From IMG/VR virus record IMGVR_UViG_3300034061_003146, positions 1 through 41,210 of that record: 41,210 nt of DNA; one strand, given 5' to 3'. Both the position numbers and the translations under genes were made by a program. The notes below the pieces were generated by a model. That model saw only the letters and a list, made by a program, of their open reading frames with translations. It searched no databases and was not told the DNA's origin. Origin of the DNA: a virus. Each line of letters starts with the position of its first letter. Position 1 is the first letter of the stretch. This document shows, in pieces, positions 9,888-35,459 of this stretch.

Positions 9888-10543
9888 TGCTAAAAATCAC
9901 AGTTGACGAAGCCTCAATTCGGCAAATGAAAAGCAACCTTGGTGCGTTCGGCGATCACTTGCCAAGGCACTTGGCTACAGCAGTCAATCGGACTGCAAAG
10001 ACTGTCCGAGTGCAAGCAGCAAAGGCACTCAATCCGTTGGTCAACCTCAAGCTGTCGAGTGAGAACAAGGGCGTAGCCAAACCGATCAACAAAGCAGCAA
10101 CGCTCAAGAAAACAATCAAGCAAAAGAACAAAGCCGAGCCCGGTAACGCAGGCGTAACGATTGGGCTTTGGGAAGGTCATCACTTCCCGGTTCGGATGAA
10201 CGAAGCCAAGTCCTATAGTAAGAAGCGACGGGGCAAGAGGCAGAGTCTCGGAGTTCAATACAAAACGCACATGGGCGGCGGGTGGACTGTAATCTCCGAT
10301 GGGTTCATCCAGTCGCGATGGCGTGGCGATGTTTACCGGCCAGCTAGCGAAGGGGCTAGGAAGCTTGTTCGGGTTCTCAGCAAGCGACCCGGTGACTACT
10401 TCCGCGAAGGCAACATCGGGACAATTGCGGCGGATACTGCAAGGGAGCGACTCCCAATTGAAATCAATCGGCGGCTTAGAGAAATCATTCTTGCGGCCAG
10501 TGGACAGATTAAACTAAGAGCATCAAGGGAGCTAGGCAAATGA
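9887..10543 (+). CDS. Minor tail protein Z-like tail completion protein
   Basis: A 218-residue basic protein. The N-terminal region (LPRHLATAVNRTAKTVRVQAAKAL) matches the recognisable start of lambda gpZ-like proteins, which help join the finished tail to the head. The middle is Lys/Arg-rich. The start overlaps the previous stop by one base; the stop overlaps the tail tube gene start. Confidence 0.65.
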   Translation: MLKITVDEASIRQMKSNLGAFGDHLPRHLATAVNRTAKTVRVQAAKALNPLVNLKLSSENKGVAKPINKAATLKKTIKQKNKAEPGNAGVTIGLWEGHHFPVRMNEAKSYSKKRRGKRQSLGVQYKTHMGGGWTVISDGFIQSRWRGDVYRPASEGARKLVRVLSKRPGDYFREGNIGTIAADTARERLPIEINRRLREIILAASGQIKLRASRELGK

Positions 10544-11475
10544 CTCTACTAAAACGCAAGCGAGTATTGGCGGCAAAGATCGAAGCAACACCGGGAACGG
10601 CGGAGGCTTTAACGGCATCCGAAGCGGCTTTCAACTGCTATGACATCATGATCCAGAGCGAAACGGAACTTGAGGCCAGGGAAGGTCAGGCATCTTTCGG
10701 GATGCGTGCTTCGGTTCCCGGCAACTACAAGGGCAGGCTCACATTCAAGCATGATGCGTCTTGGGATGGCACGGCTACCGAGCCATCATGGGCCGATACG
10801 TTTCTTCCTGCTTGCGGTTGGGTCAAGTCCGGTCAAGTGTTTACACCTCGGACGGAAGCCCCAGGGACAAACGTAAAGACCCTCACGATGGCAGTTTATA
10901 TCGACGGCGTTCGTAAGCTTTTGCGTGGATGCGTTGGAACATTCAAGATCAACTGCCCAACAGGAAAAGCGGCTTTCCTTGAGTTCGATTTCATGGGTGT
11001 TTGGGAATCGCCGACTGATACGGCCATCCTTGTGCCTACCTATCCGACGGCAAGCCCATTGCGGTTCGCATCCTCGACAACTACATGGAACAGCGTTGAT
11101 CTTGCAGTTGAAAACATGACGCTCGATAGCGGCAATACGATGATGCTTCGGGAAGATTCTAGCAATGTAGCGGGGCTCAAGTGCGGACTTATTACCAACA
11201 GGCTCATCAAGGTCACGGGAAACCCTGAGGCCAAGCTTGTTGCGACCAATCCGGTTTACGCCAAAATGCTCGACATGAGCGAGCACGCTCTGACCTGGGA
11301 TCTTGACGGGCCTACGAACAGCAAAATCACGATCGCTTGTCCGAAGGCTCAAATCGTCGGCTTGACCGAAGCAGATCGAGAAAACATGGTCACTGATGAA
11401 ATCGAGTGGCAAGGAAATCGAAACGGGTCATCCGTCGATGAGGAATGCTCGATCACCTTTACAGCGGCAACTTAA
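10540..11475 (+). CDS. Major tail tube protein
   Basis: A 311-residue protein beginning LLKRKRVLAAKIEATPGTAE, a typical tail tube start (a strand then a TPGT turn), with a beta-rich body and a terminal WQGNRNGSSVDEECSITF segment. Position between tail completion genes and the frameshifted chaperone supports the assignment as the polymerising tube subunit. Confidence 0.78.
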   Translation: MTLLKRKRVLAAKIEATPGTAEALTASEAAFNCYDIMIQSETELEAREGQASFGMRASVPGNYKGRLTFKHDASWDGTATEPSWADTFLPACGWVKSGQVFTPRTEAPGTNVKTLTMAVYIDGVRKLLRGCVGTFKINCPTGKAAFLEFDFMGVWESPTDTAILVPTYPTASPLRFASSTTTWNSVDLAVENMTLDSGNTMMLREDSSNVAGLKCGLITNRLIKVTGNPEAKLVATNPVYAKMLDMSEHALTWDLDGPTNSKITIACPKAQIVGLTEADRENMVTDEIEWQGNRNGSSVDEECSITFTAAT

Positions 11476-11492
11476 TAGGCATCGGAGGTAAC

Positions 11493-11840
11493 GTGCCAAT
11501 CTTTTTGGAACCAGATCAAAGCTTTTTGGTGGTGCTTGCATCAGACAAGGATAAGCCCATCGAATCTCGGCCAGTGTTTCGCGTCAAGTCTCAATCGATG
11601 CGGCATCAACGCAGATTGCTTGAGATTATCGACATCATCCATAAAGATGGCGTTACTGTCGATGAAATATTTGACGCAACCATCGAGCAACTAAAGCGAG
11701 TTGTTTGTGGCTGGTCGAACATGGGGCAACCGTTTAGCGTCGATGCTCTCGATGAGCTGTTGACGTTTAGCGAAGCTAGAGAGTTGCTTTCGCTGTGTGC
11801 GTACAATCAGCGAATGGATGACTCCGAAAAAAAAGACTGA
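11493..11840 (+). CDS. Tail assembly chaperone, gpG-like product
   Basis: A 115-residue protein read from GTG 11493; GGAGGTAAC lies immediately upstream and decides this start over the in-frame ATG at 11445, which is inside the tail tube gene. It sits between tail tube and tape measure genes, the fixed place of tail assembly chaperones. Its last codons run through eight A residues (11827-11834), where ribosomes can slip to make a longer form. Confidence 0.75.
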   Translation: MPIFLEPDQSFLVVLASDKDKPIESRPVFRVKSQSMRHQRRLLEIIDIIHKDGVTVDEIFDATIEQLKRVVCGWSNMGQPFSVDALDELLTFSEARELLSLCAYNQRMDDSEKKD

Positions 11841-12172
11841 GAGTCGCGGCATTGATACGGCAGGGATTGCTCTGTCGGCATTGCAGCGACAAAGAATGCA
11901 AAGACAAGGGAACGAGCCATGAACCGATCGAAATCGAATGCACAGCTTGCAACGGTGGCGGATGCGATCAATGCGATCAAGGCATCTTTCGCGTTGAAGG
12001 TTGCCCCAATCGATATTGCGATGGTCTCGGGCAATTCGTCGAGTTGGTTGATCTGTTCGATGAGGGCTTGCCACCTGTAGCGGGTGGGGCGCTTGATCAG
12101 GCGGTTAGTTTCCTTGAGGCGGCAAGACGGTTTAAGAACGAAGAACAACGAGCAAAAGCGGAGCGAGCATAG
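11493..12172 (+). CDS. Predicted -1 frameshift product, gpGT-like chaperone with Cys-rich extension
   Basis: A -1 slip on 11827-11834 passes from the gpG-like frame into the frame ending at 12172 with no stop between, giving about 227 residues. The extension alone would need a TTG start at 11852 with no visible ribosome site, which favours frameshifting. The extension carries CRHC, then CTACNGGGCDQCDQG and GCPNRYCDG, a pattern like the DnaJ zinc-finger CxxCxGxG repeat, followed by a helical tail. Lambda gpG/gpGT uses the same logic to regulate loading of tube subunits on the tape measure protein. Confidence 0.72.
11827..11834 (+). promoter_or_regulatory. Slippery A8 sequence for -1 frameshifting
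   Basis: Eight A residues read in the zero frame as GAA AAA AAA. A -1 slip keeps Lys pairing at both codons. The zero-frame stop follows four bases later (11838-11840). Confidence 0.7.
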
Positions 12173-13561
12173 ATGGCAGGCGATGCGGTCAAGATCGTTA
12201 TAGCGGCGGAAGACAAAGCATCCGCACAGGCGATGAGCGCAGCCAAGAACATCGAGGCATCCGTTAAGGGCATCAAGGAGACTGGCCAAAAGGCTAAAGC
12301 CTCGACCGAGTTTATCGGCATTCTCGCTGGTCAACTTGGCGGCGGTCAGCTTGCGTCAGCGGCTCAGCAAGTCGCAGCTATCACAGAGAAGGTCGGTCAG
12401 TTTGCCGAGGTGCAGAAGCTAGGCGGGGCTGGTGCGAATCTCTTTAAGGCTGGTATCGCGGCTCTCGTTGGCGTCATGTCGTTTCAGCTCGGCAAGTCGA
12501 TCGGCGAAATGATCTTCGGGGTCGAGGAGGTTAAGGACGCACTTACGGAAGCAACGGAGGATGCTGATAGGTTTACGTCAGCACTAAACGAGCTATCAAA
12601 TAAGAAGTTCGGCGAGACTCTCGAAGATATTTCGCTTGTTCGAGATCCAAAAGCCAAGCAGCAGGCGGCTTACGATGCTTTCCAAGGCATCCAAAAGGAG
12701 CTCAATAAAGCATACGATGGTATGCACTCAAGGCTAACGCAGATCGATAAACTCAAGTCTCAGTTCGATCCGTTTGGAGGCAACACCGACGCGATCAATC
12801 AATTGCAGATAGAGGCGAATTCTCAGGTTGAAATAATCAACAATCTTGAGAAGCAAAAGCAAAAGATGGGCGAGTTGTTCGGGCCAAGATCGTTGGAGAT
12901 TCAGGCGATCAAAGACAGGCAAAAAGCAGAGGACGAAGCAGCAGCAAAAGCCAAGCAGATTAAAGACTCGGCACTTAATCAACTGAAGAAAGCCAACTTT
13001 CAATATCTCGAATTGACGAAGGGTATCGAAGCATCAAGGGAGGCTCAACTTGCCGACGAGGGCATAACGGGTATCGATGCCGAGCGAATCATCTTGGCCG
13101 AGCGTGCAGCGGACATCGCCAAGAAGAACGCCGAAGATAAAAAGCGAGCCGACGACGAGGAGCAAGCAAGGCTTAAGCGTGTTGCTGACTTGCAAGCTAG
13201 TGAAACTCAGCGACTTGAAGAACAGCGAATCCTATTGACGCAAGGCGAAGAAGCGGCGAACCGGTTTAGGCTCGTTCAAGAGGGACTGTCGGAAGATGCA
13301 GCAGCTAGGATCGCAGCAGAGCAATCCGCATTGGACAAGCAAAAGAAGCAAAGCGAACTAGCCAAGAAGCTTTCCGAAAAGCCTCAGTTAATGGCAGTCG
13401 AGCAACGGCTTGTGATGCGTGGTGCTTCTGAGGACATCCAAAAAGACATTGCATCCAATACGCTCAAGACGGTCGAAAAACTCGATCAAGTAACCGAAGC
13501 AATCAAAGCGATGCCGAAACAAGGTGCTGAGAACAATCTGCAACTGGAGTTTGTTTCGTGA
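12173..13561 (+). CDS. Tape measure protein
   Basis: A 462-residue protein starting MAGDAVKIVIAAEDKASAQA, a frequent tape measure opening. A hydrophobic section lies near 95-125 (LFKAGIAALVGVMSF) and long coiled-coil stretches rich in Ala, Lys, Glu and Gln follow. It sets tail length and is placed right after the frameshifted chaperone, as in other siphoviruses. It is short for the family; at the usual 0.15 nm per residue it implies a tail of roughly 70 nm. Confidence 0.82.
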   Translation: MAGDAVKIVIAAEDKASAQAMSAAKNIEASVKGIKETGQKAKASTEFIGILAGQLGGGQLASAAQQVAAITEKVGQFAEVQKLGGAGANLFKAGIAALVGVMSFQLGKSIGEMIFGVEEVKDALTEATEDADRFTSALNELSNKKFGETLEDISLVRDPKAKQQAAYDAFQGIQKELNKAYDGMHSRLTQIDKLKSQFDPFGGNTDAINQLQIEANSQVEIINNLEKQKQKMGELFGPRSLEIQAIKDRQKAEDEAAAKAKQIKDSALNQLKKANFQYLELTKGIEASREAQLADEGITGIDAERIILAERAADIAKKNAEDKKRADDEEQARLKRVADLQASETQRLEEQRILLTQGEEAANRFRLVQEGLSEDAAARIAAEQSALDKQKKQSELAKKLSEKPQLMAVEQRLVMRGASEDIQKDIASNTLKTVEKLDQVTEAIKAMPKQGAENNLQLEFVS

Positions 13562-14460
13562 GTAACATCATCGAAGTAACTGAAATGTGGAGCAAGCCGG
13601 TTTCATCGGTCACGCTATCGGACAATTTCCGCAAGCGACAGATTAAGCTTCAGCGAGCGTTTCAAATCCTAACGACTCCACAGGCTAAAGAGGTAGACTG
13701 CTTTTCGTCCACTGGCATCCTAGAAGGAGATCGATTCTCGGCAGACTTTCCGTATGCTTTCGCCGACAATTTTTCTTTGAGCCGGCAAAGCTTGATCCTT
13801 TGGCAACTCAACATCGACTACACCGGCGAGCTAGGGCCAAGCGAGAATGAGGACAATCCGCTATTTGCTCCACCTCGAATCGATTGGGACGACGTTGAGA
13901 CTGAGGAAGAAATAGACGAGGATTGGGACGGAAACCCGATCCAGACGGTTAACGGTGAGCCGATCGAGGGCGTTAAGACCTTGCTACCGGATCAGACGGT
14001 TACGATCAAGCGTAACATGCTGATGTTTAATCCCTACGTTCAGGCGGCATATCGTCGATCGGTCAACAGCGATTCGTTTTTGAATTGGCCACCGGGTACG
14101 GCGAAACTGATGAAGCTGTCCGCGTCCAATGTGGTCACGCCTCAGCTTGCCTATTGGGAAGTAACGGGCCAAATTCGCTTCCGGTATCCATACCGAACGA
14201 CGAACGAGAAAGCGTGGTATCGTCGGACTCGGCATCAAGGATTCTATAAGAAGATTGAAATCGACGATCCTGCCAACTCAGGCGAAAAGAAAAACATCAT
14301 CGTCCGAGCACTCAAGGGCGGTGAGCCGACTAACAGGCCGGTTTTGCTCGATGCCAACGGTTTCGAGATACCACAGACCGAAGGTCAACAAGTGCAGGCA
14401 CACTGGTTAGAATTTAAGATTTATAATCCACTTCCCTACGGAGCATTGGGGCTACTATGA
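13558..14460 (+). CDS. Tail tip/distal tail protein, family not recognised
   Basis: A 300-residue protein starting at GTG 13558, overlapping the tape measure stop. It has an acidic linker (DDVETEEEIDEDWDG near 120-134) and aromatic-rich strands (FRYPYRTTNEKAWYRRT). I do not recognise the family. Position just after the tape measure gene suggests the distal tail or baseplate hub. Confidence 0.6.
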   Translation: MSNIIEVTEMWSKPVSSVTLSDNFRKRQIKLQRAFQILTTPQAKEVDCFSSTGILEGDRFSADFPYAFADNFSLSRQSLILWQLNIDYTGELGPSENEDNPLFAPPRIDWDDVETEEEIDEDWDGNPIQTVNGEPIEGVKTLLPDQTVTIKRNMLMFNPYVQAAYRRSVNSDSFLNWPPGTAKLMKLSASNVVTPQLAYWEVTGQIRFRYPYRTTNEKAWYRRTRHQGFYKKIEIDDPANSGEKKNIIVRALKGGEPTNRPVLLDANGFEIPQTEGQQVQAHWLEFKIYNPLPYGALGLL

Positions 14461-15086
14461 CAACGATTCCAAATATTACGATGGTTCTACCTCCCGAGGT
14501 CATCACCAATTACACGATCGCGGGCAATGCCGACATTGCATTCACCAAGATCGCCCAAAGGGTCTTGGCCGAGTCGGTCATTCCGTTGACGCAGGCGCGG
14601 GTATGGGATGCGGTTCAAACCAACCTGTCCCATACACCGGCCAGCGACGATCTAGGGCTAGTCTCAGGCACTTGGGGAACGAATCCGGTCAGAATTACGG
14701 CGGGTGACGTAAAGGCTCTAGGATCGACGACTAGGCGGCTTTATTTGGCAATTCCGATCCCGTCGAACTATGAGGACGGCCAGACTATCCAACTTCGCAT
14801 CCGTGCCAAGATGGAAACGACGGTAGCGGACAACTCTTGCACGATCGACGCTGAGGCTTACGTCGGCGCCGATGGATCGCTCGGCTCTGATCTTGTGACG
14901 ACTCCAGCGGCTTCGATGAACAGCCTGTCGGCGGCGAACTATGATTTTACGATCAACGCTACGGGCGTGGATCCTGGGGATTTGCTCGAAGTCCGTTTAA
15001 GCATCGCTAGCAACGATGCAGCAACGGCAACGGCGGTAACTCCGGCGATCTACTCGGTCTCGTTGCTCTGCGATACAAGGGGCTAA
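14457..15086 (+). CDS. Putative tail structural protein
   Basis: A 209-residue beta-rich protein with many Thr and Ala residues and no clear catalytic motif. It overlaps the previous gene by four bases and is followed three bases later by another structural gene. A virion role is inferred from the operon only. Confidence 0.55.
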   Translation: MTTIPNITMVLPPEVITNYTIAGNADIAFTKIAQRVLAESVIPLTQARVWDAVQTNLSHTPASDDLGLVSGTWGTNPVRITAGDVKALGSTTRRLYLAIPIPSNYEDGQTIQLRIRAKMETTVADNSCTIDAEAYVGADGSLGSDLVTTPAASMNSLSAANYDFTINATGVDPGDLLEVRLSIASNDAATATAVTPAIYSVSLLCDTRG

Positions 15087-15089
15087 TCA

Positions 15090-15770
15090 GTGGCTCAACA
15101 GATCGGAGCATACACGCCAAAGCAGGCGAAGCGAATATGGGACGCGGTGCAAGCTTTCGAGCGAAGTGGCACAGCGTCGCAAGGGGCTTTCCTGCCTTAT
15201 ACGCCGACTCCGATCTACTTCGTCAACAAGTCAACCGAAACGATTCCGCCTTATGGGTGCGTCCAGATGATCGGATCGAGCGAGATTGACGGAACGACCT
15301 ACCTCGAGGTTGATCGACCATTCGACTACACCGATTCGGTAATGGGGCCGTTTCTGCTCAATGGGCCGGGCGAATGCTTGCCCGATGAGATCGGTACGGC
15401 TCAATGGGGGCCAGTGTTTCGAGCAACGAAGGATTCAGCGACCTACACAACCGGAACGCGAATGGGGCCAGTTGCAAGCTCTTTCGATCTGTCGAAGGGC
15501 TGCCTCTTTACGTTCATCGGCGACGACGAACAAGAGGTCGATTTAATCAAGGTCATCGCCTGCGAGACTCCATTGCTAGCGGTGGCAACATCGGGCATCG
15601 GTGCCAACACCAGCGGAACGGTAACCGCCAAGGCTCCTGGATCTGGTAATTGGACGGCGGGAAGCGTAACATATACCGCATGGAATCCTACGGGCGATGC
15701 AATTGGGTCGGCGGCTCTTGTGCTGCTTTTTCCGGTCGATGCCAAGTGGCTTGCTGTGGAGCTCTGCTAA
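15090..15770 (+). CDS. Putative tail structural protein (GTG start)
   Basis: A 226-residue protein starting at GTG. The helical N-terminus (YTPKQAKRIWDAVQAFERSG) precedes a beta-rich body with Gly/Ser/Thr segments (SGIGANTSGTVTAKAPGSG). The family is unknown to me, but its place in the tail operon suggests a tail tip or adhesin component. Its TAA shares one base with the ATG of the next gene. Confidence 0.55.
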   Translation: MAQQIGAYTPKQAKRIWDAVQAFERSGTASQGAFLPYTPTPIYFVNKSTETIPPYGCVQMIGSSEIDGTTYLEVDRPFDYTDSVMGPFLLNGPGECLPDEIGTAQWGPVFRATKDSATYTTGTRMGPVASSFDLSKGCLFTFIGDDEQEVDLIKVIACETPLLAVATSGIGANTSGTVTAKAPGSGNWTAGSVTYTAWNPTGDAIGSAALVLLFPVDAKWLAVELC

Positions 15771-17221
15771 TGGGTGGAATGGGTCGCTGTTGTTGCACTT
15801 GCGATTGCTTGCCATTGGAGGACTTGCCAACGGTGACAATTGACGGCTACACCGGAAGCGGTTGGAGTGGCGAATGTTGCTATGAGCAAACATTTACGCC
15901 AAACAGTACGCCAAGTTGGTCTAAGTCTTGTAGCGGGATGCTTTACGAGGCATCTTCGTCATCTACTTGCGTTACTCAACACTGGATTCAAAAGAGCCCG
16001 GATTATCGCGGTTACGAAATTTTCCCAAGCGGGTGCGATGAGATACCGGAGGATTATTGCTGCTACGAAGACTCCGAGCACATAGCGACAACGACAACTA
16101 GCGGGACTGGTGCTGAGAATGCTTTTCTTGCAGTATGGAGACGGATCAAACACATAAAGGTTAGGATCAGTCAAGAAGAAGTTGATTGTAGCGGGGTCGA
16201 AGGTCAGACAGGCGGATGCAAGATCGTCATTCGGTCTCGATTTGTTTATGATTGGTCTTCCAAGGTTTACACCGACAAAACAAGCACAATCGAGCAATCG
16301 GTTCAAATGGTGAACGAGTCATGTTTCGAAGCAAACACGCTTTATACTTACGAGGACTACACTCCACCTTTAATGACTTGCAGCGATGTTCCATCGGATC
16401 CACCTGAGGATGAACCATTCGCTTGTATGTATGGCGGTGAGATCTATTTTGATCGAGTAAAATACTTCGATGAAATGCCTTTAGAAAGCCTGACTTTTGA
16501 AAATGGCGACATCCCAGGGTGCGACTCGTCATCATGCGACTACGAGCCTTACAACTATGTCTCGCAAATTTGCATTTACGGGCCATCAGGCGAGATTGAT
16601 GACAACGAATGCAGATTTGCTTTGCCTTGTTATTGCGTATCTCCGCCAACGCAAAGAAGCGTAACGCTTACTCAAGATGACACAATTTGCGAAGGCAACT
16701 CAGTAACCGAAGTCGGGCCATGCGATCCAGCGGAGGAAGTGCTTTGCAATACATTGACGACATCTTGCCAAAACCCAGGCGATCCACCAAATTTTTCGTA
16801 TGATTGCAATGATGGAGAGTCGGCAAGTGCAATAGGGTTTATTGATACATCAGGCGGTATAGGCTGCGGGTTTTACGATGGGGTTCGTAAAGGTGGAGTA
16901 GCACCGCCAGCGTTCAGTGGTTTATTCGCGCTTTACAACGGTTGCGGAGGTGGGTTTGGGCCTTACGAAACTCCAGTAGCTGATGGCCCTGAGATTTATC
17001 CTTGGGTGCGCACCTATGATTGCGATGAAACCCCATGCAATCAAGCTTGCTGTCGATTCTACGACGATTGCCCGAATTGCTTTCCCGATGGTGTTTGCAA
17101 AGAGCTGTACGAGCGGCCTTGGTCAACGGTTATTTCACACACTCGCTCCCAGTCTTGCACAGGTTTACAATCCGCTTCCGTTTGCACAAGTGCCCCATCA
17201 TGGACAATAACACTGTCTTAA
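15770..17221 (+). CDS. Very cysteine-rich tail-operon protein
   Basis: Read from ATG 15770 (overlapping TAATG) the protein has 483 residues with about 39 cysteines, roughly 8 percent. They come in pairs and clusters such as RCCCTCDC at the N-terminus, ECCYE, YCCYED, CYC and a C-terminal NQACCRFYDDCPNCFPDG. It is also rich in Asp, Glu, Ser, Thr, Tyr and Pro, with no transmembrane segment. This looks like an extracellular, disulfide-bonded protein and is unusual for a phage made in a reducing cytoplasm. Position at the end of the tail operon suggests a tail tip or receptor-binding role. The next gene resembles a sulfhydryl oxidase. Confidence 0.7.
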   Translation: MGGMGRCCCTCDCLPLEDLPTVTIDGYTGSGWSGECCYEQTFTPNSTPSWSKSCSGMLYEASSSSTCVTQHWIQKSPDYRGYEIFPSGCDEIPEDYCCYEDSEHIATTTTSGTGAENAFLAVWRRIKHIKVRISQEEVDCSGVEGQTGGCKIVIRSRFVYDWSSKVYTDKTSTIEQSVQMVNESCFEANTLYTYEDYTPPLMTCSDVPSDPPEDEPFACMYGGEIYFDRVKYFDEMPLESLTFENGDIPGCDSSSCDYEPYNYVSQICIYGPSGEIDDNECRFALPCYCVSPPTQRSVTLTQDDTICEGNSVTEVGPCDPAEEVLCNTLTTSCQNPGDPPNFSYDCNDGESASAIGFIDTSGGIGCGFYDGVRKGGVAPPAFSGLFALYNGCGGGFGPYETPVADGPEIYPWVRTYDCDETPCNQACCRFYDDCPNCFPDGVCKELYERPWSTVISHTRSQSCTGLQSASVCTSAPSWTITLS

Positions 17222-17670
17222 AAATCAACCTCGATGGCTCTCGTTACGTCGAGCAACCGCCAGCGGTGCCAACGTCGAGCAAGATCGAGCTAGTCGGTCA
17301 GCAACCGCAACCAAGGCAACCAGTGAGCCAAGAGCAAGTGATTGCAGCAAGAGCCGAGCGAACAGCCAAGCAAGGTCGGTTCGCATGGTCGTTGCTTCAC
17401 AAATATCGCGGGTGCGATCCTCAGTGGTTGGAATTGTGGGTCTACTTTATTCCGTCGAGGTGCGATTGCAGGGACGGATTCCAGCACATCCTAAAAGAAT
17501 TGCCACCGGATTATTCAAGCCCCGAAGCCTTTTTCGCCTGGGGCGTTGCACTTCACAACGCCGTCAACGCGAAGCTAGGCAAGCCACAAATCACGCTAGA
17601 GGAAGCTTACTTAATTTGGAGGAATAAAGATGGGTTGGAGCACAAAGAAACTACAGCGGAACGTAGTTGA
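17200..17670 (+). CDS. Erv1/ALR-like sulfhydryl oxidase homologue (CxC variant)
   Basis: From ATG 17200 the protein has 156 residues. Residues 61-129 line up with the FAD-binding helical domain of Erv1/ALR sulfhydryl oxidases: WSLLH near 63-67, LPPDYSSPEAFFAW near 101-114 and HNAVNAKLGKP at 119-129, the family FAD-binding signature. The redox site is RCDCRDGF at 87-94, a CxC instead of the usual CxxC, so activity is uncertain. Residues 1-60 are Gln/Pro rich and probably flexible. It overlaps the Cys-rich tail gene by 22 bases, which suggests a joint role in disulfide formation; this link is inferred. Confidence 0.65.
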   Translation: MDNNTVLKINLDGSRYVEQPPAVPTSSKIELVGQQPQPRQPVSQEQVIAARAERTAKQGRFAWSLLHKYRGCDPQWLELWVYFIPSRCDCRDGFQHILKELPPDYSSPEAFFAWGVALHNAVNAKLGKPQITLEEAYLIWRNKDGLEHKETTAERS

Positions 17671-18511
17671 GATCATAATCGATCTGTCCCGCAACAAGGA
17701 TTGGGAGCAATGGGTATTGCTTCGATCGGATGTCCATCATGACAACCCAAAGTGCGACCAAGAACTAGAAAAGCATCACCTCCAAGAGGCCATTGACTAT
17801 GATGCTCCGATCATCGATAACGGAGATCTGTTCTGCGCGATGCAGGGCAAATGGGACAAGCGAGCCGACAAGAATGCACTAAGAGAAGAGCATCGAGGAG
17901 GCAACTACTTCGATCTACTCGTTGAAACTGCGGCGGAATTCTACAAGCCATTCGGGGCTCAATTCGCGGTGCTTGGCAAGGGCAACCATGAAACGGCGGT
18001 GACTAAGGCACATGAGACCGACTTGACCGACAGGCTGGCCTCTAGGATGCGTGCCCACGGGTCGAAAGTAGAATCGAGTGGCTACGGTGGGTTTGTTCTG
18101 TTCCGCTTTCAGGATGCCAACCAGAAGCATCTACGCAAGAGCCCGAAGGATTCTAAGGTGCTTTACCACTTCCACGGCACAGGCGGAGGCGGGCCAGTTA
18201 CGCGAGGCGTGATTCAGACGAATCGAATGGCGGTTTGGAGTCCTGATGCGGATATCGTGCTATCGGGACATACGCACGATGAATGGGCTGTAACGATACC
18301 GAGAATGCGAATATCCTCAAAGGGCGTGGTTTACCATGATGAGCAATTGCACATCAGGCCGCCAGGATACAAGGATGCTTGGGCTGATAGCGATCATGGT
18401 TTCGAAACCGAGAAGATGCTCGGGCCTAAGTCGCTCGGAGCTGCTTGGCTTCAGTTCACATGGTGCTCTCGTCGCGGGCGAGTAATGGTAGACACGAAGC
18501 GAGCGAAATAA
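17630..18511 (+). CDS. Calcineurin-like metallophosphoesterase
   Basis: A 293-residue protein with the complete set of metallophosphoesterase motifs: SDVHHDN (D34, H36), DNGDLF (D66), GKGNHE, YHFHGTGGGG and LSGHTHDE. These bind two metal ions and hydrolyse phosphoester bonds; the substrate cannot be told. GGAGG upstream supports the start at 17630, which overlaps the previous gene by 41 bases. Confidence 0.85.
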   Translation: MGWSTKKLQRNVVEIIIDLSRNKDWEQWVLLRSDVHHDNPKCDQELEKHHLQEAIDYDAPIIDNGDLFCAMQGKWDKRADKNALREEHRGGNYFDLLVETAAEFYKPFGAQFAVLGKGNHETAVTKAHETDLTDRLASRMRAHGSKVESSGYGGFVLFRFQDANQKHLRKSPKDSKVLYHFHGTGGGGPVTRGVIQTNRMAVWSPDADIVLSGHTHDEWAVTIPRMRISSKGVVYHDEQLHIRPPGYKDAWADSDHGFETEKMLGPKSLGAAWLQFTWCSRRGRVMVDTKRAK

Positions 18512-18810
18512 TGGATAACTTCGCTACCCTTCGCGATGCACTCAAGCAAGCCAACCCAACTATCAGCGTCTCGGTCAGGCGGTGCAAGATGCCTGCGAAA
18601 TTGCTAGGCGATTGCCGACGCAAGAGCGATCATTTTCTAGTGCGAGTCTCAAACGATCAACCGATGCAGGGCCAAGTCGATACACTTGTCCACGAATTCG
18701 CTCACGCCATCGCGTTCATCGAGTGGGAAGAAACCGGCCAACACGGGTCGATTTGGGCCAGTGCTTACGCCGATTGCTACCGGATCTACGAAAAAACGGT
18801 TACCGGCTAA
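18511..18810 (+). CDS. SprT-like zinc metallopeptidase domain protein
   Basis: A 99-residue protein with VHEFAHAIAF (HExxH at 61-65) and a third candidate ligand in GQHGSIWA (H78), the order seen in SprT-like zinc peptidases. It lacks the usual C-terminal zinc ribbon. I chose ATG 18511, which shares one base with the previous TAA, over an upstream in-frame start inside the phosphoesterase gene. It is the last gene before the AT-rich control region. The substrate is unknown. Confidence 0.7.
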   Translation: MDNFATLRDALKQANPTISVSVRRCKMPAKLLGDCRRKSDHFLVRVSNDQPMQGQVDTLVHEFAHAIAFIEWEETGQHGSIWASAYADCYRIYEKTVTG

Positions 18811-19223: not shown

Positions 19224-19252
19224 GCCTAACCAACTGACGAGCCGGGAACGGC

Positions 19253-19290
19253 GAAACCCCTCGGGGTCTTGGTTTCAACACTTTTTCAAC
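19253..19290 (+). terminator. Hairpin in leader of the next small gene
   Basis: GAAACC (19253-19258) and GGTTTC (19271-19276) pair around a GC-rich loop containing CCTCGGGG; a T-run follows at 19282-19286. It may be a weak terminator or attenuator. The sequence AACACTTTTT and GGAGATAG after it recurs before the next gene. Confidence 0.3.
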
Positions 19291-19302
19291 GGAGATAGGA
19301 TT

Positions 19303-19551
19303 ATGGCAACTGCAAACAATGGTGTCGATCAAGAATTCAGCATCCGATGCAAGGCTTTTAGCGGCGAAGGTGTGAGGCTTAACAGGGTGCTTGTCGAGGG
19401 CGGTGCTAATGGCAGCATCTCTGTGTGGGATTCTGTCGCGGGTCACTACACGACATGCCACAGCCTCTCAGAGCGAGCCCAAAAGCGCATCCGCAAAGAA
19501 AGCTTGCACCGCTGGAAAGTACAGTATTTTCACGGGCTCAAGTTGGCTTAA
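19303..19551 (+). CDS. Small protein, function unknown
   Basis: An 82-residue basic protein read from ATG 19303 after GGAGATAG. Its C-terminal half is Arg/Lys/His rich (SERAQKRIRKESLHRWKVQYF). An upstream in-frame ATG at 19090 lies inside the previous gene and has no ribosome site. No family recognised. Confidence 0.55.
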   Translation: MATANNGVDQEFSIRCKAFSGEGVRLNRVLVEGGANGSISVWDSVAGHYTTCHSLSERAQKRIRKESLHRWKVQYFHGLKLA

Positions 19552-19572
19552 CACTTTTTTGGAGATAGAACG

Positions 19573-19749
19573 ATGGCACGATTAACTAAAGACGGACTCA
19601 CAATTTACGACCTTCAGCCGCAAGCCAGTGAGCTTTGCGTTGTTGCTGGGCCGATTGGCTACAGGGTTGACGAGATCGACATGGACGACTTGCCGATTGG
19701 TTTTCGGTGGGTTACGGCTCAAGAGTGGGAGGAACTGCAACATGCCTAA
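19573..19749 (+). CDS. 58-residue protein, function unknown
   Basis: ATG 19573 follows GGAGATAGAACG and a leader resembling that of the preceding gene. The product is acidic and ends TAQEWEELQHA. Its stop overlaps the start of the next gene by eight bases, which supports translation. Confidence 0.55.
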   Translation: MARLTKDGLTIYDLQPQASELCVVAGPIGYRVDEIDMDDLPIGFRWVTAQEWEELQHA

Positions 19750-24444: not shown

Positions 24445-24708
24445 ATGGTCAATCGTTTTGGTTTTCTTTGTGTTTTTAGTTGCGTTTGTGTTTGCAGTCT
24501 AGTCGGGTGCAAGTCAACGCCAAGTCAGTACGAGATTTTGGAGGTTAAAGATGAAAATTGTTTTGAACAGGTCGAAGTTTTTGGAAGCGTTCAATCTCGC
24601 AGCATCGGGGGCATCAAGCCAAGTCAAAGACGTACTTGGCAACGTCTTGATCGATGCGACGACGGGTCAGTTAGAGGCCAGCAACGGCGAAACGTCGCTG
24701 GTGGTTGA
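24445..24708 (+). CDS. Possible small lipoprotein overlapping the clamp gene
   Basis: An 87-codon frame whose N-terminus looks like a lipoprotein signal: MVNRFGF, a hydrophobic Cys/Val-rich stretch and a lipobox LVGC at about 19-22 followed by KSTPS. The last 52 codons overlap the sliding clamp gene in another frame and look like a shadow, so the gene may be decayed or end in an overlap. Confidence 0.35.
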   Translation: MVNRFGFLCVFSCVCVCSLVGCKSTPSQYEILEVKDENCFEQVEVFGSVQSRSIGGIKPSQRRTWQRLDRCDDGSVRGQQRRNVAGG

Positions 24709-25636
24709 TTTCGTTGCCGACGAATTGCACTCCCAAGGTACAGCTCTCTTGGATCCTCGCAGAGTCGGTTCGATCCTGAAAGAGTCTAGGTCGGAGCTTG
24801 TCACAATCGAATCCGACGATAAGTCGATCGAGATCACAACCGACGAAGGCTCTTTCACGCTCCAGGCTCGCAATGCAAGCGAGTTCCCACGGGTATCGAC
24901 CATTGAGGGCAAGAGCATCGAGGTTGGCTCTACGGGCTTGCTAGGGGCTTTGCGAAGGGTCGATTTTGCAACCGACGTTGACTCAACACGATACCAGCTT
25001 GGCGGGGTTAATTTCGTTGCCAACTCAAAACATTTGGAACTGATTGCGACCGACGGGCGGCGAATGGCCTACAGCTTCCTAGATTTGCATCTAGGAAGCT
25101 ATTTAGAAGGCGGTTCGGCCATTGTGCCAACCAAGGCTCTCGGACTCGTTAAACGCTCGCTAGAGGGCTCGGAAGGCTTTGTGGGTGTTTCGGTCAACAA
25201 GTCGTCGATCCAGTTTCGAGGGGATAAAGTGGCGATCCAGACCAGGTTGGTCGAGGGCCGGTATCCCAATTGGCAATCGGTTATTCCGACTGCTGATGGC
25301 ATCGAGTTTCGATTCTTGGCAGGGCCGTTTCTGCAAGCAGTTCGCCAAGCATCGGTAACCGCTGAGCAGGAATCGCGGGGTGTTGTATTTAGCTTTGGCG
25401 ATGGCTCTTGCAAGATCGCTGCAAAGGCGGCTGACGTTGGGCGGTCTCAAGTGTCAGTACCGCTAGAGACTCCCGAAGCGTTTGAGATCACGATGGATTA
25501 TCGGTTCGTGCTCGATTGGTTGCAGTCGCTCGACAAGACCGATCAAGTGTCGCTGTGGTGCAAGGATCCTACAAGGCCTACGTTGTGGGTCTCGGGTGAG
25601 TCCAAATACGTCATTATGCCAATGAACAGGAGTTGA
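24551..25636 (+). CDS. dnaN: DNA polymerase III beta subunit-like sliding clamp
   Basis: A 361-residue protein similar in length and motifs to bacterial DnaN: a start of MKIVLNRSKFLEAFNLA, IATDGRRMAYS near 162, TRLVEGRYPNWQSVIP near 232, and a C-terminal YVIMPMNRS like the clamp's final strand. The three-domain clamp encircles DNA and tethers polymerases. GGAGGTTAAAG precedes the ATG. No polymerase gene is seen here, so it probably serves the host polymerase or other DNA enzymes. Confidence 0.88.
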   Translation: MKIVLNRSKFLEAFNLAASGASSQVKDVLGNVLIDATTGQLEASNGETSLVVDFVADELHSQGTALLDPRRVGSILKESRSELVTIESDDKSIEITTDEGSFTLQARNASEFPRVSTIEGKSIEVGSTGLLGALRRVDFATDVDSTRYQLGGVNFVANSKHLELIATDGRRMAYSFLDLHLGSYLEGGSAIVPTKALGLVKRSLEGSEGFVGVSVNKSSIQFRGDKVAIQTRLVEGRYPNWQSVIPTADGIEFRFLAGPFLQAVRQASVTAEQESRGVVFSFGDGSCKIAAKAADVGRSQVSVPLETPEAFEITMDYRFVLDWLQSLDKTDQVSLWCKDPTRPTLWVSGESKYVIMPMNRS

Positions 25637-27265: not shown

Positions 27266-27448
27266 GTGACACCGGAACGCATGATCGAGATCGAGCAACA
27301 CGCTCGACGGTTTGGCTCTGCTAATTGCTGGACAGGCACTAGCGGAACATTGGCGACAATGATTATTGAGTTGCTCAAGGTCATTCGGGATCTTGAGGCT
27401 CAAAAAGATGGTTCTTTAACGGAGGTTGATAAAGATGAATTACGATGA
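27266..27448 (+). CDS. 60-residue protein (GTG start)
   Basis: Starts at GTG right after the nuclease stop; mainly helical (MIEIEQHARRFGS, MIIELLKVIRDLEAQ). It overlaps the next gene by 14 bases. No function recognised. Confidence 0.5.
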   Translation: MTPERMIEIEQHARRFGSANCWTGTSGTLATMIIELLKVIRDLEAQKDGSLTEVDKDELR

Positions 27449-29963
27449 GTTTATAAAGTCGAAAGCTCCAGTTGTCGAGGATGATGGTTTTGAACCGTCA
27501 ACACCTTGCCCTGATTGGTTTAAGCCTCATCAGGTCGATTGTGTTAACTGGGCGATACGCAAGGGACGCGCAGCACTGTTTGAGGCGTTCGGGCTCGGAA
27601 AGACTGTACAGCAGCTGCAGCTAGGTAAGTGGATTCACGAAAAGACTGGCGGCAAAGTGTTGTTTGTTGCACCCCTTGGAGTCCGTCAAGAGTTCACAAA
27701 AAACGACGGGCCACGAATGGGAATGCAAGTCGTTTATTGTCGAACAGATGCCGAGGTCGACGCGTGCGAATCGCCATACATCATTACCAACTATGAGCGA
27801 GTTAGAGATGGCGACATCGATCCAGCTAAGTTTGCAGGTGCGATGCTTGATGAGGCTAGTTGCTTGCGATCCTACGGGACGAAAACAACGCAGCAATTCG
27901 CTATGCTGTTTCGCAAGATCCCTTATCGATTCGTGGCAACGGCTACACCATCGCCTAACGACTTCATTGAGTTGATTAACTACGCCGACTTCTTGGGTGT
28001 AATGGATCGAGGGCAAGCGATGACGCGATTCTTTCAGCGTGACAGCAAGAAAGCCGGAAATCTTCAATTGTACCCGCATGAGGTGCAACGCTTTTGGCTT
28101 TGGGTTGCATCTTGGGCGGCGTTTGTTTATTCGCCTGGAGATCTTGGATACGATGAAACTGGGTACTCAATGCCAGAGCTAAAGGTGCATTGGCACGAGG
28201 TCGAAGGCGAACAAGGGGCACCTGGAGATTGCATCGACAAACATGGAAACGCTTTACTGTTTGAACAAACAGGAGGCGGCATAAAGCACGTCGCAAAGCA
28301 TCGACGAAAAACAAAAGACCGACGTATCGAAAAAGCGGTCGAGATAGTTAATAGCGATCCTGATTCTCATTGGCTTGTTTGGCACTACCTAGAATCCGAA
28401 CGCGATGCGATTCAAAAAGCATTGCCCGATTCTAAAGCTGTTTACGGTTCGCAAGATCTTGAGACTCGCGAACAGATCGTTGATGATTTCGCCAATGGTC
28501 GCTTGAGAATCCTAAGCAGCAAACCTGAGCTTCTTGGTAGCGGTTGCAACTTTCAACGGCATTGCAATAAGGCTGTTTTCATCGGGCCGACGGACAAGTT
28601 TAACGACTTCATTCAGGCGGTTCACAGAATTCAGCGGTTTATGCAAAGCAAGCCGGTCGAGGTGCATATCGTTTTTGCAAGTACGCAATTCGATACCGTC
28701 ACGATCATGCGTAAAAAGTGGGATCGCCATAATGAGCTTTCGCAGCGTATGCGGGAGATTGTCCGAGAGAATGGTTTATCTGGAGAGTTGTTAAAGATGA
28801 AATTTCAGCGAGGTTTAGGTGTTCCAAGGGTCGAGGTTAGCGGCGATCTTTATCGAGCAATCAACAATGATTGCGTCGCAGAGTTAAAGACTTGGCCGGA
28901 TCAGTGCGTCGATGAAATCGTTACGTCGATCCCGTTTTCTGACCATTACGAATACAGCCCGAACCTTAACGACTTCGGCCACAATCAAGGCGATGATGGA
29001 TTCTTTAAGCAGTTCGATTATCTCGTTCCTGAGTTGCTTCGAGTTCTTAAAGATGGTCGCGTTGCTTGCATCCACACCAAGGATCGGATTCAATACGGGA
29101 CGATGACAGGGACAGCAATGTACTCTGTCAATGAGTTCAGCGATAAGACCGTTGCGGCGTTCAAACGGCATGGCTTTATCTACATGGGTCGCATCGTGAT
29201 TGATACCGATGTTGTTCGAGAGAACGCCCAAACCTACAGGCTCGGACACACTGAGAACAGCAAGGATTCCACCAAGATGGGTTGCGGTTCGACTGAGTTT
29301 GTTTTGTTGTTTCGCAAGTGGGATCCGTCGATGAGCCCGAACCAGACAGCTAACGGGCCTGATCCAGTTACAAAAGACAAAGACGAATACTCAAGGTCTC
29401 GTTGGCAGATCCACGCTAGCGGTATCTGGCGATCAAGCGGGAATGAGCTTGTAAGCCCGCACATTCTCGAATCGATGACGGTTAGCGAGGTTTATCACTG
29501 GTGGCGGAAATACGCCAAGGATCATGCCTATAACTACCAAGATCACGTTGCGTTTACTGAAGCAGTCGAGAGCGTTGGTAGGCTCCCAGCGTCAATGATG
29601 CTGTTTGCTCCAGTGTCGAACAACTCGGATATTTGGACAGACATCATCAGAATCAAGACGCTTAACACGGAGTTGAGCCGAAAGACTTCCGAAAACCACG
29701 TTTGCCCATTGCAGCTTGACGTTATTGAAAGGCTCATCGAGCGGTACAGCAATCCGGGCGATGTAATCCTAGATCCGTTTGGAGGTGTGCATTCTACGCC
29801 ATACCAAGCAATCAGGATGGGACGCAAAGGATGGGGTATCGAGTTAAATCCTGATTATTGGAAATTCGGTGTAGCATTCTGCGAGCGTGCAGAGCGTGAA
29901 ATGAATGCTCCGACACTGTTCGACCTGACCGAGCTTGATGCTGTTCCGATTGCGTTTGATTGA
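27435..29963 (+). CDS. SNF2-type helicase fused to a DNA methyltransferase
   Basis: An 842-residue protein. Residues 30-460 form a SF2/SNF2-like ATPase: Walker A GLGKT at 53-57, motif II as MLDEAS at 137-142 (DEAS rather than DEAH), motif V GSGCNF and motif VI QAVHRIQR. Residues 475-842 resemble a beta-class N6-adenine/N4-cytosine methyltransferase: catalytic motif TSIPF at 497-501 in place of the usual TSPPY, then the AdoMet site DPFGGVHS at 780-787 and GIELNPDYW near 805. The fusion may translocate on DNA to modify it, as part of self-protection. The Pro to Ile change may alter base or chemistry. ATG 27435 is preferred over the TTG at 27426. Confidence 0.85.
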   Translation: MNYDEFIKSKAPVVEDDGFEPSTPCPDWFKPHQVDCVNWAIRKGRAALFEAFGLGKTVQQLQLGKWIHEKTGGKVLFVAPLGVRQEFTKNDGPRMGMQVVYCRTDAEVDACESPYIITNYERVRDGDIDPAKFAGAMLDEASCLRSYGTKTTQQFAMLFRKIPYRFVATATPSPNDFIELINYADFLGVMDRGQAMTRFFQRDSKKAGNLQLYPHEVQRFWLWVASWAAFVYSPGDLGYDETGYSMPELKVHWHEVEGEQGAPGDCIDKHGNALLFEQTGGGIKHVAKHRRKTKDRRIEKAVEIVNSDPDSHWLVWHYLESERDAIQKALPDSKAVYGSQDLETREQIVDDFANGRLRILSSKPELLGSGCNFQRHCNKAVFIGPTDKFNDFIQAVHRIQRFMQSKPVEVHIVFASTQFDTVTIMRKKWDRHNELSQRMREIVRENGLSGELLKMKFQRGLGVPRVEVSGDLYRAINNDCVAELKTWPDQCVDEIVTSIPFSDHYEYSPNLNDFGHNQGDDGFFKQFDYLVPELLRVLKDGRVACIHTKDRIQYGTMTGTAMYSVNEFSDKTVAAFKRHGFIYMGRIVIDTDVVRENAQTYRLGHTENSKDSTKMGCGSTEFVLLFRKWDPSMSPNQTANGPDPVTKDKDEYSRSRWQIHASGIWRSSGNELVSPHILESMTVSEVYHWWRKYAKDHAYNYQDHVAFTEAVESVGRLPASMMLFAPVSNNSDIWTDIIRIKTLNTELSRKTSENHVCPLQLDVIERLIERYSNPGDVILDPFGGVHSTPYQAIRMGRKGWGIELNPDYWKFGVAFCERAEREMNAPTLFDLTELDAVPIAFD

Positions 29964-34066: not shown

Positions 34067-34217
34067 AGACACCTTGAAAATCGGTTTAAAGTGCTTGCTG
34101 TTCGTCGCTTTTTTTCCGTTCATGCCGTTGATATTCATTCACTGTGTTCTTGAGGAACTGATTTCTGCAATCGGGCATCTTGTGGAAAGATTAGAGGATC
34201 GAATCGATGGAATTTGA
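34059..34217 (+). CDS. 52-residue membrane peptide
   Basis: ATG 34059; product has one hydrophobic span (CLLFVAFFPFMPLIFIHCVL) followed by an acidic helix. Overlaps the peptidase gene by eleven bases. Candidate holin-like or regulatory peptide. Confidence 0.45.
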   Translation: MIKDTLKIGLKCLLFVAFFPFMPLIFIHCVLEELISAIGHLVERLEDRIDGI

Positions 34218-35025
34218 GTTCACAGGCTACGATCCAACCATAGAAAACCGCGACGCGATACTATCGCAGTCGATCGAAATCGGATTTACATTCCGCGACT
34301 ACGAAGCACCCGAGGAAGTCGATTTCCGCAAGTTGATACGCCATGACAACCAAGGCAACATGGGCTCCTGCGGTGGATTTGGTAACACGAATTGCGGCGA
34401 AGGTCTTTGGGCATTGCATACTGGCTCGATGAGCAACGATAGGCAACTGTCGCCATTGTTCAGTTATCTTGAGGCTCAACGTCTTGATGGTCTCTTGGGT
34501 CGCGATGCTGGATCTACGATCAACAGCGGGCTCAAGATTAGCAAGGAAGTTGGATATCTTGAGTTGAAAGACCTTGAGTACAAGACTCCATACCCAAACA
34601 ACGCTCGGACACTCATAACCGCCGAAATGAGGGCTAAAGCGGATCGATTTCAGGTTCGATCATCCACTTGGCTCGATTCCTACGATGCCATCAAGAATTA
34701 CATGGCATCGCAAGTTGGTGTTTGCTATGTGGGCACAATTTGGAACCAGTCGTTTTATGGTCGCAATGGCGTACTAGAATCAATCTCGATGGTCAATGGC
34801 GGAGGACATGCGTATTGCTTTGCAGGCTACAGCAAACGCAAAGACTCTAAAGGACGCAACTACATTTGGCGGTTAAACTCGCACAACGATTCTTGGACTG
34901 AAATTGCTCCATCGGTCATAGATGCTCTTTGTAAGCATCAATGGACATCGATTGTGGGCGTGTCGGATCTTTCAACGCCAGGGCCCCGGAAGGTGTCTTG
35001 GATGAAGGACAGGCCACTAGAATGA
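34207..35025 (+). CDS. Papain-like (C1 family) cysteine peptidase
   Basis: A 272-residue protein with the papain catalytic set in order: Gln49 (DNQGNMGSCGGF), nucleophile Cys55, His202 (GGGHAYCFAGYS) and Asn225 (WRLNSHNDSW). The N-terminal 45 residues are a short lead without a signal peptide, and there is no inhibitory propeptide. It stands between holin-like membrane peptides and other envelope genes, where an endolysin would normally be. I infer that it cleaves host envelope protein for lysis; it could also process virion proteins. Confidence 0.8.
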   Translation: MEFEFTGYDPTIENRDAILSQSIEIGFTFRDYEAPEEVDFRKLIRHDNQGNMGSCGGFGNTNCGEGLWALHTGSMSNDRQLSPLFSYLEAQRLDGLLGRDAGSTINSGLKISKEVGYLELKDLEYKTPYPNNARTLITAEMRAKADRFQVRSSTWLDSYDAIKNYMASQVGVCYVGTIWNQSFYGRNGVLESISMVNGGGHAYCFAGYSKRKDSKGRNYIWRLNSHNDSWTEIAPSVIDALCKHQWTSIVGVSDLSTPGPRKVSWMKDRPLE

Positions 35026-35459
35026 ACCTTAGCAACGGAGAAAAGGGAATGTTTGCCGTGATTGGTCTTTGCTTGCTTAGTTGGTTTTTTGGATCGAGTC
35101 CAAAGCCTGATCCAACTCAGTGCGATATTCCATCGAGTGACCTTGTTGGACAGGTCGCAACTGTTCGAAATTCTCTAACGGTTCAACCCGCTCCGGTTGA
35201 CGATCCCAAGCCAATACCAAGCCCAAGCGACAAGCCATTGAGGATCGAGATATTGGTGTTCGTTTCCAAGAATTGCCCACCTTGCGAAAAGTGGAAGCGA
35301 TGCGAAATGCAAAAGTTCTTGGATGCAGGATGGCAAGTCGGTATTGTTGAAGATCATCCGTTTCCGGTCACTCCAAGGTTTGAGGTCTCCAAGGGATCGG
35401 AGCGTAAGGATCACGTCGGTTACTTGACTTTTGAGCAGGCGAAAGGGTTGGTAAAGTGA
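35022..35459 (+). CDS. Membrane-anchored thioredoxin-like protein (CPPC)
   Basis: From ATG 35022 (overlapping the peptidase stop) the protein has 145 residues: a hydrophobic N-terminal anchor (MFAVIGLCLLSWFFG), a Pro/Ser-rich hinge, then a compact thioredoxin-like domain with KNCPPCEKWKRC (C85 and C88) and a following VEDHPFP and FEV segment. CPPC is typical of reductive or exchange thioredoxins. If exported it would act on disulfides at the cell envelope, perhaps on the Cys-rich tail protein or the peptidase; this is inference. Confidence 0.65.
   Translation: MNLSNGEKGMFAVIGLCLLSWFFGSSPKPDPTQCDIPSSDLVGQVATVRNSLTVQPAPVDDPKPIPSPSDKPLRIEILVFVSKNCPPCEKWKRCEMQKFLDAGWQVGIVEDHPFPVTPRFEVSKGSERKDHVGYLTFEQAKGLVK

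Follow-up and report, generated by a model that had tools for sequence, protein, structure and literature searches.

A divergent Erv1/ALR homologue with a CxC redox motif encoded beside a cysteine-rich protein gene in tailed phages

Disulfides do not normally form in the bacterial cytoplasm, where tailed phages assemble, and we know of no standard answer to how a phage builds a virion protein with some 40 cysteine residues. Human cells and giant viruses form protein disulfides with Erv/ALR-type enzymes, and most known examples come from eukaryotes or from large viruses that infect eukaryotes. The locus described here, in which a gene resembling these oxidases overlaps the gene for a 39-cysteine protein, raises the question of whether a phage carries such an enzyme for its own cysteine-rich protein.

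The window, i.e. the whole stretch of DNA analysed, is the 41,210-base IMG/VR record IMGVR_UViG_3300034061_003146 of an uncultivated virus. It encodes a gpA-like terminase, a lambda-family portal, a fused protease-capsid protein and a tail tube, and therefore belongs to a tailed phage. Upstream of the locus lies a run of tail genes on the plus strand (10540..15770), which begins with the tail tube at 10540 (Phage_tube_2, phrog_290) and continues with genes at 12173, 13558, 14457 and 15090. The gene starting at 12173 (plus strand) encodes a cysteine-free protein of 462 residues in the tape-measure position, tape measures being found at the equivalent place in contigs L437 and L458. Downstream, a metallophosphoesterase/exonuclease-like gene (17630..18511, plus strand; phrog_7339, E 2.5e-10) overlaps the 3' end of the erv-like gene and is frequently found downstream of erv in the relatives. 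A SprT-like metallopeptidase domain at 18445-18810 is also often retained close to erv in these phages.

Identity and distribution of the erv-like gene

The erv-like gene (17200..17670, plus strand) encodes a protein of 156 residues, which a sequence-only reading had assigned to the Erv1/ALR sulfhydryl oxidases. Profile comparison confirms this assignment. The Pfam family Evr1_Alr (PF04777) matches residues 75-136 of the protein, scoring 41.1 bits where the cut-off is 27.6, and this threshold is exceeded in 19 of 20 related records, while a family search for Evr1_Alr gave no match in 14 control genomes. Human and rat ALR in the PDB are matched from the sequence alone (phmmer, E about 1e-6 to 1e-5), and a profile of the family raises this match to E about 1e-9.

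The Erv/ALR helical fold is predicted, as expected from the earlier assignment, by an AlphaFold2 model based on 32 members of the family. Its mean pLDDT is 82, and the blocks covering residues 41-140 score 87-94. The best 24 Foldseek matches to the model in the PDB were all Erv/ALR structures. With VIA-align 2, the best 20 rows were Erv/ALR/QSOX, the closest structure being ASFV pB119L (Z 9.3, rmsd 2.5, 90 residues), with ALR, Erv1 and Erv2 at Z 8.1-8.7 and the first unrelated chain at only Z 3.0. In the viral structure library (BFVD), the leading named matches were giant-virus sulfhydryl oxidases, and two matches carried no name. A Z of about 8-9 is weak by itself for a small helical protein, and the fold call stands because the match list is homogeneous and in agreement with the sequence evidence.

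Relatives of the erv-like protein are encoded by 86 viral contig stretches of IMG/VR in a first scan and by 211 in a later one. With these numbers, and with the motifs described below invariant in 32 diverse members, a chance resemblance of one sequence is excluded. Searches elsewhere were negative: tblastn with four family members found no credible match in 50,697 named phage records, and a genome scan with the single erv-like sequence gave no match. An alignment scan gave one contig (L082) in a metagenome-assembled genome (MAG) of Flavobacteriaceae. Since 147 other genomes of that phylum are without the family, L082 is probably a phage contig inside the MAG bin rather than a carrier of a host gene. 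We found no report of a phage Erv enzyme in the open-access literature, subscription papers being outside the scope of this search. Taken together, ORF 17200-17670 is a divergent variant of the Erv1/ALR proteins rather than a standard family member, and it adds to a known enzyme family a new branch, from phages, in which the active site is altered and the gene has a dedicated genetic partner.

The FAD-site motifs and the CxC redox site

The motifs of the Erv FAD site are retained in the erv-like protein. A WxxxH motif (W63..H67) is encoded at 17386..17400 and an HNxVN motif (H119-N-A-V-N123) at 17554..17568, both on the plus strand and both at the Erv FAD-site positions; the latter, which is also found in ALR, is part of the HNAVNAKLGKP stretch included in the earlier alignment by eye of residues 61-129. 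In Erv structures, WxxxH has a role in FAD binding. The redox pair, C88-D-C90, is encoded between these motifs at 17461..17469 (plus strand) and, as the sequence-only reading had noticed, is a CxC in place of the CxxC of Erv in the alignment with ALR and relatives. C90 is aligned with the FAD-proximal cysteine of ALR. Among 32 diverse members, W63, H67, C88, C90, H119, N120, A121, V122 and N123 are all invariant.

Of 110 distinct cores collected from the loci, the 109 that could be scored all have CxC and none has CxxC; the remaining core has a redox site of its own, CGC. The protein contains only one other cysteine, which is not conserved, and thus no shuttle cysteine pair, as is the case for many compact viral Erv enzymes (PMC3509050). 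The active-site cysteine pair is therefore present and invariant, but its spacing is not the CxxC that marks the characterised Erv enzymes (PMC10598087).

A motif search blind to the redox site returned at least 80 matches and, among those listed, 72 had CxC only, 7 had CxxC only and 1 had both patterns. The CxxC phage forms (PCGEC, GCSTC) have their cysteines at the same position as CxC, exceed the Pfam cut-off, and are again encoded directly downstream of a Cys-rich gene. In two CxxC-type contigs that were checked, genes for terminase or capsid, for the portal and for the tape measure are present. L491 and L437 are among the phages with the CxxC form. These members rule out CxC as a universal feature of the phage forms, and we limit the CxC claim to the wider clade of the window. 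Because CxxC relatives occupy the same position, the CxC looks like a genuine Erv active site shortened by one residue; it would, to our knowledge, be the first case of a CxC Erv active site. The site is presumably redox active. The two cysteines could instead bind a metal or have a structural role.

Compared with human ALR and yeast Erv1/Erv2 (PF04777), the phage protein shares the helical FAD-binding fold by model (VIA Z 8.1-8.7), WxxxH and HNxVN, and a cysteine pair at the start of a helix, but it differs in having CxC rather than CxxC, in the missing shuttle pair, and in being encoded by a tailed phage beside a Cys-rich gene. In its compactness it resembles the viral Erv proteins of giant viruses (ASFV pB119L, mimivirus R596) and baculovirus Ac92. 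Unlike the phage protein, those have CxxC sites and eukaryotic hosts, and we know of no genetic coupling of any of them to one Cys-rich tail gene.

The Cys-rich neighbour and its pairing with the erv-like gene

The gene directly upstream (15770..17221, plus strand) encodes a protein of 483 residues with 39 cysteines (8.1%), the presumed substrate of the oxidase. It overlaps the erv-like gene by 22 nt (17200..17221, plus strand), in accordance with the overlap noticed earlier, and the overlap probably reflects translational coupling of the two genes. The sequence-only reading had called the product a tail protein. The tail gene order agrees with this, and in L437 and L458, too, recognised tape-measure genes precede the Cys-rich and erv genes by a few genes. 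As the placement comes from gene order only, we describe the product as a probable tail-tip protein, or receptor-binding protein.

The cysteines are the most conserved part of the protein. Over 33 homologues (19-82% identity), only the first Met and 12 Cys are the same in every sequence, and Cys columns are 80% conserved vs 19-36% for each other residue type. Cysteine counts differ by twos: in the largest cluster, 25 of 26 proteins have 39, 41 or 43, and the counts are odd in 33 of 42 clusters of Cys-rich proteins. This pattern, drawn from related and hence not independent sequences, fits disulfides plus one unpaired cysteine. The model of the protein is all-beta with long strands (pLDDT 76, moderate confidence), and no known fold was recognised as a match to it (best VIA Z 3.6), which does not show that the fold is new. 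Nor did the 50,697 named phage records contain a credible match to this protein. The Cys-rich proteins, including those of phages with a CxxC-type erv, share an N-terminal M(G/S)xxG(K/R)C.C-like motif (window 15770-15808).

The pairing of the two genes is nearly complete, and the co-occurrence asked of other genomes by the earlier reading is observed in practically all relatives. In the first scan, a Cys-rich ORF directly precedes erv in all 78 contigs with enough upstream sequence. The upstream ORF has at least 4% Cys (median 7.9%) for 103 of 105 distinct erv cores, a level reached by only 5 of 507 background ORFs of at least 200 residues in the same loci. Contigs anchored on the tail gene at 14457 and extending at least 2.4 kb downstream contain both genes in 48 of 48 cases, as do all capsid-anchored contigs that reach 9.2 kb or more downstream. 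The upstream proteins fall into 11 groups unlinked at E 1e-5, nine of which are at or above 4% Cys, and the pairing spans the distinct capsid/portal families of the window, L437 and L458. A strict pairing of subtypes was rejected, as core type A is found with Cys-rich proteins of different kinds. In two contigs a CxC Erv domain forms the C-terminus of a different protein; L164 (5557-6267) has a neighbour of only 1.6% Cys, and L143 (2-586) begins at the gene.

Comparison of closely related contigs reveals an exchange cassette at 15778..17514 (plus strand), comprising the Cys-rich gene and two thirds of erv from its 5' end. L073 matches the window at 90% identity over 11231-15777, cannot be aligned beyond that point, and returns at 87% identity from 17515, from which position onward L052 and L053 are also 88-91% identical; in L031, similarity to the window restarts at 17344. 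Since the DNA identity of about 87-91% that L073, L052 and L053 have with the window is confined to sequence outside the block, the Cys-rich gene has been swapped together with the 5' part of erv. The incoming gene is again Cys-rich, which argues that Cys-richness, and not one particular sequence, travels with the oxidase. Exchange of a cassette between conserved flanks also fits a diversifying host-recognition protein.

Proposed function and alternative explanations

We propose, with a probability of about three in four, that the erv-like protein is a phage FAD-dependent sulfhydryl oxidase acting in the host cytoplasm, with the Cys-rich protein encoded directly upstream as its dedicated substrate. 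In the simplest scenario, the Cys-rich protein would be translated in the reducing cytoplasm, and translation of the erv-like protein would probably be coupled to this. Thiols of the substrate would then reduce the C88/C90 disulfide, C90 would hand the electrons to FAD, and FAD would pass them to oxygen, leaving a disulfide-hardened tail-tip protein. Catalysis, FAD binding, the substrate and the virion location are what we infer. Adjacency and co-inheritance of two genes do not by themselves prove that their products are enzyme and substrate. Like DsbA/DsbB, such an enzyme would place disulfides in proteins made in bacteria. DsbA/DsbB, however, work in the periplasm with quinones, whereas the phage protein has the Erv fold and no evident signal or membrane segment.

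If the proposal is true, a dedicated oxidase encoded beside its substrate would explain how a Cys-rich virion protein is made in a reducing cytoplasm, and viruses would bring their own machinery to harden a part of the virion within the bacterial cell. It would also offer a natural tool for producing disulfide-rich proteins in the bacterial cytoplasm. The finding is broader than the single locus first noticed, as it extends to over 200 IMG/VR contigs and several phage backbones. Somewhat less confidently, though we still lean towards it, we suggest that unrelated tailed-phage backbones share a portable cytosolic disulfide module, consisting of an Erv-fold oxidase, mostly CxC, dedicated to an adjoining, fast-changing Cys-rich tail-tip protein, with some of the oxidases fused to glycosyltransferases that may decorate the Cys-rich protein.

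The fusions themselves vary. In L162 and L233 the Erv domain runs on into a glycosyltransferase (Glycos_transf_1). L146, L141 and L046 join it to a further domain that by eye resembles another glycosyltransferase, and L436 has it in one chain with a methyltransferase domain. These suggest that the Erv domain belongs to a wider set of enzymes modifying the Cys-rich virion protein, and that the position beside the Cys-rich gene gathers enzymes acting on that protein. In two further fusions to a longer C-terminal domain, L288 4848-5993 and L301 4857-5975, the His of WxxxH is replaced by Trp (WxxxW).

The sequence-only reading had also included a CPPC protein in the disulfide system. This thioredoxin-like protein (35022..35459, plus strand) is a possible partner of the oxidase. 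After a hydrophobic N-terminus it has CPPC, which is CEPC in some relatives, and then a TPxF element. Of 19 related virus records that were searched, 12 encode it, among them 9 of 9 clade records of 36 kb or longer, in which the motif is always CPPC or CEPC. The case for a partnership is this co-occurrence. Against it, the hydrophobic helix suggests that the protein is probably membrane-anchored and faces the periplasm, i.e. the other side of the membrane from the proposed oxidase; its gene lies 17 kb away from erv; and the records of G006 and G012, two more distant erv phages, gave no match to it. Poxviruses oxidise virion proteins with an Erv protein and thioredoxin-like proteins (E10R, A2.5L, G4L; PMC1318495), and the proposed phage system would resemble theirs as a virus-encoded Erv for virion-protein disulfides in a reducing compartment. 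It differs in having one Erv gene beside its presumed substrate, with the putative thioredoxin-like partner probably in another compartment. We therefore regard a relay of this type, a refinement of the proposed oxidase rather than an alternative to it, as possible but doubtful. A homologue of papain-like C1 peptidases (34207-35025, Pfam E 1.6e-5) is encoded directly before the CPPC gene.

Of the true alternatives, the first, though we consider it unlikely, is that the Erv fold has degenerated: the protein would no longer be an oxidase and would instead act as a chaperone for the Cys-rich protein or as its structural partner. This would account for a CxC spacing unlike that of characterised Erv enzymes, for a short protein with 3 Cys only, and for a segment between WxxxH and the cysteine pair that some phage CxxC forms exceed in length. 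Degenerate enzymes, however, usually lose active-site and cofactor-site residues, whereas here both cysteines and the FAD-site residues are nearly invariant in about 110 distinct sequences while the rest diverges. CxxC forms, moreover, sit at the same gene position, and the missing shuttle pair is no mark of decay, being absent from many viral Erv enzymes too (PMC3509050).

A shade less probable still is that the cysteines of the neighbour bind metal (e.g. zinc or iron-sulfur) and form no disulfides, with the erv-like protein loading or protecting them. N-terminal clusters such as MGGMGRCCCTCDC do look like metal-binding clusters, but the number of cysteines shifts by twos within clusters and the cysteines are scattered along a predicted beta-rich chain, both as for disulfides, and the partner protein has the Erv fold. 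Ordinary vertical synteny, by which the genes stay together through phage kinship and not functional dependence, is very improbable: most contigs do represent one clade with the same gene order, but the pairing is kept across distinct capsid/portal families and with many unalignable Cys-rich proteins, and it survives the swap of the Cys-rich gene for another one.

Several other features of the window deserve mention beside the oxidase locus. Short stretches at 19226-19308 and 19543-19740 have matches at several places of L002 and are perhaps an intergenic repeat. The phage encodes its own DNA polymerase III beta clamp with all three domains (24551-25636), and a single ORF of 845 residues (27426-29963) combines helicase and DNA N6/N4 methylase domains. 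The ORF at 39734-40480 matches the PHROG of beta-glucosyl-HMC-alpha-glucosyltransferases (phrog_842, E 4.8e-25) and adjoins a ParB-like/DNA methyltransferase gene; from this match and this neighbour, the phage may modify its own DNA.
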